This document shows, piece by piece, positions 60,152-62,921 of a DNA stretch of 64,000 bases; position 1 is the first letter of the stretch, and every line of letters begins with the position of its first letter. The stretch is from Fimbriimonadaceae bacterium (lineage in GTDB: Bacteria; Armatimonadota; Fimbriimonadia; Fimbriimonadales; Fimbriimonadaceae), in NCBI GenBank assembly GCA_026129685.1, contig JAHCHO010000005.1, forward strand, positions 310,001 through 374,000. Reading direction: 5' to 3'. The notes beneath the pieces were generated by a model that searched no databases, had not been told where the DNA came from, and worked only from the letters and a program-made list of their open reading frames with translations. The translations under genes were made by a program, and so were the position numbers.

Positions 60152-61021
60152 GTGAAAGTGCTGCTGCTGGGAGCGGGCGGAATGCTGGGGCAAGAAGTCC
60201 GGAACGTCTTCACGGAGCACGGATGGGAGGTTTGGGCACGGGATCTCCCCGAGTTCGACCTGACGAACCCGGTATCCGTCGCCTCCGTCGCCGTCGACTA
60301 CGCCGACGCCGATTGGTGCGTCAACTGCGCCGCCTACACGGCGGTGGACAAGGCCGAGACGGAGCGGGACGCCGCCTTCGCCGTGAACGCCTACGGACCG
60401 ACGATCCTCGCCGACGCCTGCCTCCTGGCGGGCACGAAGCTGCTCCACATCGGGACCGACTTCGTGTTCGACGGCGAAAAGGCCGAACCCTACACCGAAG
60501 ACGACGAGCCGAACCCGCTCAGCGCCTACGGCGATTCGAAGCGCGAGGGTGAGAAGGCCGTCCTGGCCGGCGGGGGTTGGGTCGTGCGGACCTCGTGGCT
60601 CTTCGGCCCCTGCTTCAACGGCGGGTTCCCCGCGACGATGATCCGGCTGGCCCGGGAGGGCAAGCCCCTCCGGGTGGTCGACGACCAATTCGGAACGCCG
60701 ACCTACACGCGCGACCTGGCCCTCACCCTGCTCGCCATCATGGAGTCGCAAGCGCCGTGTGGGGTCTACCATGCGGCGGGACCGGAGATCACGACGTGGC
60801 GTCGTCTTGCCGAGGCGGCGATCCGCGAGGACCGACGGCAACGGGGCGAACCCGAGGAACCTCTCGACGTGACCCCGATCTCGACCGCTGAATGGCCCGC
60901 GCCCGCCCGTCGGCCCCGTTGCTCCCCCCTGGTCTCCCGCAAACTGGCCGAACTCGGAGTTCCACCGATGCGCCCGCTTGCGGAGGCCCTTGCCGAGTAC
61001 GTTGCGCGCCGGAACGCGTAG
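60152..61021 (+). CDS. rmlD: dTDP-4-dehydrorhamnose reductase
   Basis: A 289-residue short-chain dehydrogenase-type protein for the last step of dTDP-L-rhamnose synthesis. GTG 60152; Rossmann motif VLLLGAGGMLGQEVRNVF, substrate loop VNCAAYTAVDKAETERDAAF, VFDGEKAEPYTEDDEPNPLS and catalytic YxxxK in YGDSKREGEKA. The other rml genes are not here. Rhamnose would feed surface polysaccharide. Its TAG lies inside the TAGAAT box of the next gene. Confidence 0.92.
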   Translation: MKVLLLGAGGMLGQEVRNVFTEHGWEVWARDLPEFDLTNPVSVASVAVDYADADWCVNCAAYTAVDKAETERDAAFAVNAYGPTILADACLLAGTKLLHIGTDFVFDGEKAEPYTEDDEPNPLSAYGDSKREGEKAVLAGGGWVVRTSWLFGPCFNGGFPATMIRLAREGKPLRVVDDQFGTPTYTRDLALTLLAIMESQAPCGVYHAAGPEITTWRRLAEAAIREDRRQRGEPEEPLDVTPISTAEWPAPARRPRCSPLVSRKLAELGVPPMRPLAEALAEYVARRNA

Positions 61022-61032: not shown

Positions 61033-61890
61033 ATGCCCGAACTTCCCGAGGTCGAAACCGTTCGCCGATTGTTGCGGAAGGTGCTTCAGGGACGGCCGAT
61101 TCGGTCGGTCGAGGCGGAACCCGACCCCATCGTCCTCAGCGGCTTCCCGCCCGAGGCGTTTCACGAGGCGTTGCTGGGCAGAACGGTTACCGACGTCGGG
61201 CGGCGCGGCAAGTTCTTCTGGCTCGAGTTTGGGGAGCCGCCCTTCGTCTACGGGCATCTCGGGATGGCCGGATGGGTGCGCGAAGTGCCACCGCCGGGCA
61301 CGACCAAAGACAAGGAGTTCCGTCTGCGCGAGCACGGGGAGGCCCCCTTGTACGACGCCAACGGACGCCCCCGCTTCCAAAAGATCGCGATCCAGACCGA
61401 CGCGGCCCGGGTGGCGATGACCGACAGCCGGCGGTTCGCCCGGCTGTGGATCGGCGGTCGCCCCGCTGAAGACGCCCGGGTCCGCAAACTCGGGCGGGAC
61501 GCGCTGGACGACCTGCCGGCCGCCGTCGATCTGGTGGCGATCTTCAAGAACCGGAAGGCCCCGTTGAAGGCGGCGCTGTTGGACCAGGGTCTCTTCGCCG
61601 GGATCGGAAATTGGATCGCCGACGAGGTGCTGTACCGGGCCCGTATCGCCCCCGGCCGGCCGGCCGCGACCCTTTCCCCCGCCGAGGTCGCGACCCTGCG
61701 CGAGGCGATCGGCGACGTGTTGCGCCATGCGTGCGAGGTCGAGGCGGACTACGAGCGCTTCCCCGAGGACTGGCTGTTCCACCACCGGTGGGGCGGGACC
61801 AAGGGGGCCGAGTTCATCGACGGCCTCCCGATCGTGCGCGAGACGATCGGGGGGAGGACGACGGCCTGGGTTCCGGCCCGCCAGACGTGA
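61033..61890 (+). CDS. mutM: Fpg/MutM-type DNA glycosylase, zincless-finger form
   Basis: A 285-residue DNA glycosylase/AP lyase that removes oxidised purines such as 8-oxoguanine. The catalytic Pro2-Glu3 is intact (MPELPEVETVRR), as are Lys60 in GRRGKFFW, the GHLGMAGW loop and the H2TH region (LDQGLFAGIGNWIADEVLYR). The C-terminal four-Cys zinc finger is missing: the end reads FIDGLPIVRETIGGRTTAWV then PARQT, with no CxxC. GGRTTAWVPARQ resembles the GGRTTAYVP-type zincless finger of plant and fungal Fpg proteins, keeping the key Arg. Its TGA overlaps the dus GTG. Confidence 0.93.
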   Translation: MPELPEVETVRRLLRKVLQGRPIRSVEAEPDPIVLSGFPPEAFHEALLGRTVTDVGRRGKFFWLEFGEPPFVYGHLGMAGWVREVPPPGTTKDKEFRLREHGEAPLYDANGRPRFQKIAIQTDAARVAMTDSRRFARLWIGGRPAEDARVRKLGRDALDDLPAAVDLVAIFKNRKAPLKAALLDQGLFAGIGNWIADEVLYRARIAPGRPAATLSPAEVATLREAIGDVLRHACEVEADYERFPEDWLFHHRWGGTKGAEFIDGLPIVRETIGGRTTAWVPARQT

Positions 61891-62921
61891 GCCACCCCGG
61901 CTTCCGCATCGGCGGGGTCCGGGTCGAGCCGCCCCTCGTGCTCGCCCCGATGGAGGACGTCAGCAACCTGGCGTTCCGCAGAATCGCCAAGCGGATCGGT
62001 GGTCCGGGGCTGATGTTTTCCGAATTCGTCAGCGCGATGGCGATCCATTACGGGGCGACGAAGACGTTCAGGAAACTCCGCGTCCACCCCGAGGAGCGGC
62101 CTCTTGGAATCCAGATCTTCGGCGGCGACCCGGACGTGATGGCGGAGACCGCCCGGTTCGTCGAGACGTACGAGCCCGACCTGATCGACATCAACATGGG
62201 GTGCTGGGTCCCCAAAGTGTGCCGCACGGGTTCCGGGGCCGCGCTGCTCAAGGACCCCGAACTGGCCGAGCGCATCGTGCGGGCGGTGGTCCGGGCGGTT
62301 CGCGTGCCCGTCACGGTGAAGGTGCGGGCGGGATGGGACTTCTCGCTTTTTGCCGCGCCGGAACTTGCCAAGCGGTTCGAGGACGCGGGGGCGAAGGCGA
62401 TCACCCTCCATGCGCGGTTCGCCAAACAGGGCTTTGAGGGACAAGCCGACTGGGACCTGATCCGGCGGCTGCGGGAATCGGTGACGGTTCCCGTCATCGG
62501 GAACGGCGACGTGAGGTCCCCGGCGGATGCCCTGAGGCTCTTGGAAGAGACGGGCTGCCACGGGGTGATGGTCGGGCGGGCCGCGATCTCGAACCCTTGG
62601 TCCCTGGCCGCGATCCGAGCCGTCCTCGTCGGCGAAACGGCCCCTCCTCCGCCCACGATCCATGATCGGATCGCGGCCGCGATCGAGCACGCGCGGCTCA
62701 TGGTGGCCTACGAGGCGGAGGTCGACGCGTACGAGGACACGATCGGTTTCGCCGACCGCATCGACCTGGAGCTAAGAGCGATCCGGGCGTTGCGGGGGCA
62801 ACTGCCGCTCTACATCAAAGGGGAACCGGGCTCGGCCCAGGTCCGGGAGCGCCTTTCACGAGCGTCTTCGGTGGCCGAAGTGGAAGATCTGCTCGGAGAG
62901 TGGCGCTCTCCGTCCCGCTAG
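61887..62921 (+). CDS. dus: tRNA-dihydrouridine synthase
   Basis: A 344-residue FMN enzyme that reduces uridines in the tRNA D-loop. GTG 61887 overlaps the mutM stop (GTGA). DusB-like motifs: PLVLAPMEDVSNLAFRRIAK, PLGIQIFGGDPDVMAETARF, LIDINMGCWVPKVCRTGSGA with the catalytic Cys, VKVRAGWDF, AITLHARFAKQGFEGQADWD and CHGVMVGRAAISNPW. The residue after the catalytic Cys is Trp where the family has Pro. Confidence 0.93.
   Translation: MSHPGFRIGGVRVEPPLVLAPMEDVSNLAFRRIAKRIGGPGLMFSEFVSAMAIHYGATKTFRKLRVHPEERPLGIQIFGGDPDVMAETARFVETYEPDLIDINMGCWVPKVCRTGSGAALLKDPELAERIVRAVVRAVRVPVTVKVRAGWDFSLFAAPELAKRFEDAGAKAITLHARFAKQGFEGQADWDLIRRLRESVTVPVIGNGDVRSPADALRLLEETGCHGVMVGRAAISNPWSLAAIRAVLVGETAPPPPTIHDRIAAAIEHARLMVAYEAEVDAYEDTIGFADRIDLELRAIRALRGQLPLYIKGEPGSAQVRERLSRASSVAEVEDLLGEWRSPSR

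Follow-up and report, generated by a model that had tools for sequence, protein, structure and literature searches.

The open reading frame at positions 61033 to 61890 (plus strand) of the window, the 64,000-nucleotide stretch of Fimbriimonadaceae (Armatimonadota) DNA that we analyzed, encodes what is, by its sequence, a member of the Fpg/Nei (H2TH) DNA glycosylase superfamily with a finger free of cysteines. From the sequence and a structure model, we predict with a probability of about 0.75 that the gene specifies a functional bifunctional glycosylase/AP lyase of the type known as plant/fungal Fpg (PFNei), in a branch of bacterial Fpgs with which the plant enzyme clusters. The zincless PFNei group has been described with its membership given as Plants/Fungi (PMC3188539), and within eukaryotes Fpg homologs are confined to plants and fungi (PMC6728418). 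The literature that we searched, which stopped short of key primary papers, held no description of a bacterial branch. We therefore place the window Fpg in a new branch, found in bacteria, of an enzyme type already known; an earlier mention of this branch is possible.

The gene is complete, with exact bounds at an ATG start and a TGA stop, and its product of 285 amino acids begins with MPELPEVET. Pfam matches above cut-off cover the N-terminal catalytic beta-sandwich domain, with the Pro2 nucleophile, Glu3, and Lys60 (61033..61443; residues 1-137; PF01149, E 3e-28), and the H2TH DNA-binding domain, which includes Asn193 (61489..61749; residues 153-239; PF06831, E 1.4e-20). In an alignment of 31 relatives, Pro2, Glu3, Lys60, Asn193, and the finger residue Arg275 are invariant, as are Arg57 and Gly59 of the N-terminal domain; the initial annotation had read the catalytic Pro-Glu, Lys60, and H2TH region as intact, and this holds. 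Upstream, an RmlD/RfbD-type reductase gene (60152..61021, plus strand; PF04321, E 1.1e-84) is separated from the Fpg start by 11 bp, and downstream the GTG start of a tRNA-dihydrouridine synthase (Dus) gene (61887..62921, plus strand; PF01207, E 1.7e-78) overlaps the Fpg stop codon. A conserved operon with either neighbor was considered and rejected, since neither adjoins the Fpg gene in 21 relatives. The GC content is even across the region.

The finger (residues 241-285; 61753..61887) has no cysteine at all; the sole cysteine of the protein, C234, lies in the helix preceding it. The zinc-finger model PF06827 matches both H2TH paralogs of the genome but not the window Fpg, in agreement with the earlier reading that C-terminal cysteines are lacking. 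That reading had also likened the tail, GGRTTAWVPARQ, to the plant and fungal zincless finger; of the 43 finger residues that align with Arabidopsis FPG1, 21 are indeed identical, while FPG1 and E. coli Fpg share 10 of 41. On two profiles built from bacterial zincless fingers, the FPG1 finger scores 46.4 and 56.0 bits, against 9.8 bits on the zinc type. The likeness goes beyond chance: we extracted 70 distinct sequences that conserve the finger motif, 3 of which retain a single cysteine. Those three (L014, L019, and L120) belong to the main zincless clade, and their cysteine, in the form GGRTTAWCP, occupies the position of the third zinc ligand. The window finger spans the whole of the Pfam model PF21218 (Fpg-like_C) at 19.4 bits, below the cut-off of 27.1, and a Planctomycetota sequence (L023) reaches 26.7 bits on the same model.

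A second feature common to the window Fpg and the plant enzyme is a short version of the loop that caps 8-oxoG (residues 237-243, approximately; 61741..61761): about 12 alignment columns of the E. coli Fpg loop are absent from both, and the same deletion occurs in Bacteroidota sequences that still have zinc-finger cysteines. Published loop lengths are 23 in BaFpg1 and 12 in the plant/fungal group (PMC3188539, Table 4). Arabidopsis FPG1 is also the nearest relative of known structure, with 183.7 bits (E 4.3e-53); the highest score of a bacterial MutM is 87.3 bits, and chains of NEIL1, a protein kept outside our trees, reach about 24 bits. The AlphaFold model of the window Fpg has a mean pLDDT of 93.3. 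Its C-terminal hairpin, for which structure prediction had been proposed as a check, is confident at residues 268-279 (pLDDT about 96), with strands at 268-272 and 275-279 and the DNA-contacting Arg275 at the start of the latter. The model fits the Arabidopsis enzyme best (3twm; Z 33.2, rmsd 1.6 Å over 258 residues, 40% identity), followed by MutM (Z 28.0, rmsd 2.3) and Mimivirus Nei1 (Z about 24).

With Arabidopsis thaliana FPG1/MMH-1 (PDB 3twk, 3twl, and 3twm; PFNei), the window Fpg thus aligns over its full length and shares the catalytic residues, the short loop, and the zincless finger motif FPxxW[IL]FHxR...GGRTTA[YW]VPxxQ. It differs from FPG1 in being bacterial, in lacking the long C-terminal extension, and in an insertion at about residues 88-110, which is modeled with lower confidence and which Planctomycetota relatives (e.g., L020) lack; the window Fpg also scores under the Fpg-like_C cut-off. 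With bacterial MutM/Fpg (BaFpg1; E. coli, Geobacillus, and Thermus), it has in common the N-terminal domain, the Pro/Glu/Lys catalytic residues, and the H2TH domain, but not the Cys4 finger or the long capping loop. Its scores on the NCBIfam models for fpg lie below their cut-offs (TIGR00577, 163 bits against 203.3; NF002211, 152.4 against 212), and these curated models cover only residues 1-241 and 1-235 of the protein. The H2TH glycosylases human NEIL1 and Mimivirus Nei1 have a finger free of metal too, but they are far more distant. The Bacteroidota short-loop Fpgs (e.g., those of Adhaeribacter, L030, and Rufibacter, L034) share the short loop and an FPxx[FY] motif before the finger; unlike the window Fpg, they keep a Cys4 or near-Cys4 finger, although some of their relatives have a partial set of cysteines or none.

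We constructed three trees: one of 79 full-length sequences; one of 71 with the finger columns removed; and one of 66 full-length sequences, without long branches and with additional alphaproteobacterial, Bacilli, and actinobacterial MutM sequences. Eukaryotes were represented by one confirmed sequence, that of Arabidopsis FPG1 (taken from the PDB alignment), and by the probably algal L028, with no fungi. In all three trees FPG1 and the bacterial zincless sequences form one clade (100/98, 98/90, and 100/98, respectively), within which FPG1 groups with Planctomycetota-type sequences (98/86, 97/98, and 99/92) and the Armatimonadota group of the window is sister to both. The Bacteroidota clade comes next, with strong support in the finger-free tree (100/95) and in the third tree (100/99) and with weak support in the first, which includes the long branches (69/76). 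The window Fpg is not nested in ordinary MutM, an outcome that the initial annotation had named as counting against its reading. The full-length profile scores of FPG1 agree with the trees, falling from 328.8 on the Planctomycetota-type zincless group to 259.5 on the Armatimonadota zincless group, 222.5 on Bacteroidota, and 171.6 on ordinary zinc Fpg. An alphaproteobacterial (mitochondrial) origin of FPG1 was rejected, given that the three alphaproteobacterial MutM sequences fall far off in the third tree, built without cyanobacteria.

AU tests on the finger-free alignment allow several neighboring arrangements. Namely, they do not reject a clade of all bacterial zincless sequences without eukaryotes (p 0.27), of Armatimonadota with eukaryotes (p 0.37), or of the Planctomycetota-type sequences alone (p 0.44), nor a placement of eukaryotes outside the bacterial zincless and Bacteroidota sequences (p 0.29). 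With other nearby placements thus permitted, our sequence comparisons support a bacterial source for the plant zincless Fpg. A single clade of all zincless sequences is rejected, narrowly (p 0.042), and the tree needs two state changes. Within the Bacteroidota, the number of cysteines in the finger declines from four through intermediate counts to zero, and Fpgs of Cryomorphaceae/Owenweeksia have a different zincless finger, GGRGTFIVPEKQ; on these sequences, zinc was lost separately in that phylum. Since the short loop is common to the zincless sequences and to Bacteroidota with a Cys4 finger, the order of the tree suggests that shortening of the loop probably preceded the loss of zinc.

Counting matches at E below 1e-20, we found the zincless Fpg in 66 of the 85 genomes of the window's Armatimonadota family, to which Armatimonadetes bacterium 55-13 belongs. 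It is the sole H2TH match in 34 of the family's genomes, 26 of them at least 95% complete, and this breadth together with its place as the only such match indicates that the gene is maintained. Two genomes of the window's genus (G140 and G141), one of them 97% complete, have no zincless match, which may reflect either loss or re-acquisition by the window's lineage. Matches in Armatimonadota outside the family are mostly of the ordinary kind, and one (G203) is full length but has an internal stop. The zincless kind occurs in about 13 of 294 Planctomycetota genomes and in 9 of 282 Myxococcota genomes, where some matches, on short contigs, may be misassigned. Two assemblies labeled Myxococcota (L011 and L016) carry an Armatimonadota-type zincless Fpg 55-61% identical to that of the window, which may stem from transfer or contamination. 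Three Planctomycetota genomes with zincless loci (G294, G296, and G297) also encode a second Fpg. Among 296 Bacteroidota genomes, matches came from only 5, and most of these matches have cysteines in the finger. Spread via plasmids or phages was considered and set aside, as the Fpgs found there are all less than 40% identical. A contig named Phycisphaerales UBA7812 (L028:2000-5481) carries an Fpg with a K-rich tail, a run of N, and a RING-finger-like reading frame that scores under the Pfam cut-off; it is probably a green-algal fragment, present as contamination or a misjoin in a public MAG, and was left out as bacterial evidence.

We counted three H2TH genes in the genome that contains the window (3.94 Mb, 99% complete). 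One paralog, on contig C12, is a divergent Fpg2-type protein that starts with MPELPDVT and keeps the zinc finger. The other (L003:1501-2334, on contig C3) is a Nei-like H2TH protein, also with a zinc finger, whose N-terminus, MVELPEA, leaves it without the catalytic proline at position 2. Neither is an ordinary MutM copy; a second normal mutM, which had been raised as a sign that the window gene might be a decaying duplicate, is not found among the H2TH genes of the genome. The one HhH-GPD gene first found there is MutY. A search with OGG_N revealed a further gene (C1:428319-429224, minus strand; L196:820-1725, minus strand), adjoining a DNA ligase gene, whose OGG1-type product has the motif LPGVGPKLADC...AVPVDTHLW and is closest to human OGG1, at 169.7 bits against 92.6 bits to the bacterial 8-oxoguanine-DNA-glycosylase 3f0z; on the NCBIfam model ogg it scores 183.3, below the cut-off of 397.85. 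Bacterial OGG1 has been described as rare findings in Firmicutes (PMC8307549). OGG_N matches occur in 65 of the 85 genomes of the family, and across these genomes they show no correlation with the zincless Fpg (Fisher p 1.0); OGG1 is therefore a background feature of the family, not a demonstrated co-acquired partner.

Judging from the conserved residues and the model, Pro2 would attack C1' of the damaged nucleotide while Lys60, Asn193, and the finger residue Arg275 clamp the backbone, as in Fpg, and the metal-free beta-hairpin in place of the Cys4 zinc site would still present the arginine. By analogy with Arabidopsis FPG1, the enzyme most likely has a plant-like specificity, in which formamidopyrimidines and hydantoins would be excised and AP sites cut, with little removal of 8-oxoG; this preference is predicted because the αF-β9/10 capping loop is short. 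Reviews describe FPG1 itself as efficient on Fapy, Gh, and Sp and strong as an AP lyase but weak on 8-oxoG, and they ascribe this weakness to its short loop (PMC10573277, PMC6728418). Our prediction of substrates may be mistaken, since older plant work, as reviewed, reports some 8-oxoG activity of plant Fpg and complementation in E. coli. From the gene content, 8-oxoG:C would probably be handled by the OGG1-type enzyme and 8-oxoG:A by MutY, so that a cell with both genes need not rely on the zincless Fpg to repair 8-oxoG. The genome's set of Fpg, OGG1-type enzyme, and MutY resembles that of plants.

The initial annotation had left two explanations for the plant-like finger, an ancient bacterial source or a convergent loss. 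Had zinc been lost independently in the window's lineage, the resemblance would be convergence; separate loss evidently does occur, as the finger of Cryomorphaceae/Owenweeksia (GGRGTFIVPEKQ) and the narrow rejection of a single zincless clade illustrate, and NEIL1 has been judged separate in origin from the plant/fungal zincless fingers (PMC3188539). Yet the rest of the protein groups with FPG1 even without the finger columns (98/90), and in full-length profile scores FPG1 fits the bacterial zincless groups better than ordinary zinc Fpg, by 88-157 bits, which makes convergence highly improbable here. Of the two explanations, the bacterial source is thus the one that the trees and profile scores favor for plants, and a separate loss is seen within the Bacteroidota. 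That the gene instead passed from eukaryotes to bacteria is decidedly improbable: FPG1 and the Planctomycetota sequences are close (99/92), a branch that gives no direction by itself, but the Armatimonadota group splits off before the two diverge, and the next relatives (Bacteroidota) and every outgroup are bacterial. For the bacterial source in its fuller form, we see roughly even odds that the Armatimonadota/Planctomycetota branch gave rise to the plant, and perhaps the fungal, Fpg after the loop shortened and zinc was then lost, with the bacterial pairing of this Fpg with an OGG1-type enzyme and MutY matching the set of plants.

As to function, it is scarcely credible that the window carries here a redundant or degenerating mutM copy whose finger was lost. 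The genome does have two further zinc-finger H2TH genes, and the gene is missing from two genomes of the same genus; against this, the reading frame is intact, the catalytic residues are all conserved, the gene is found in 66 of 85 genomes and often alone, and of the paralogs, one is of a divergent Fpg2 type and the other, Nei-like, lacks Pro2. A full MutM that removes 8-oxoG despite its short loop is a more serious candidate, albeit an unlikely one. The zincless Fpg is the sole H2TH match in many family genomes that have MutY, nine of which lack an OGG_N match, and E. coli fpg strains can mutate less when they carry plant homologs. Still, the loop is short like that of FPG1, for which reports give minor or almost undetectable activity on 8-oxoG, and the window genome encodes an OGG1-type enzyme.

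A functional enzyme of the plant kind with predicted plant-like specificity, which we prefer, would have several consequences. With a well-populated branch in bacteria, the origin of the eukaryotic zincless Fpg becomes testable and the loss of the loop is separated from the loss of zinc; the branch also provides small enzymes free of a zinc site for study. PMC4176347 and PMC7139703 describe inhibitors that act on the Fpg/Nei zinc finger, and a naturally metal-free bacterial Fpg would thus be a useful control. The findings suggest, moreover, a family of bacteria in which 8-oxoG is probably repaired by OGG1 rather than by MutM.
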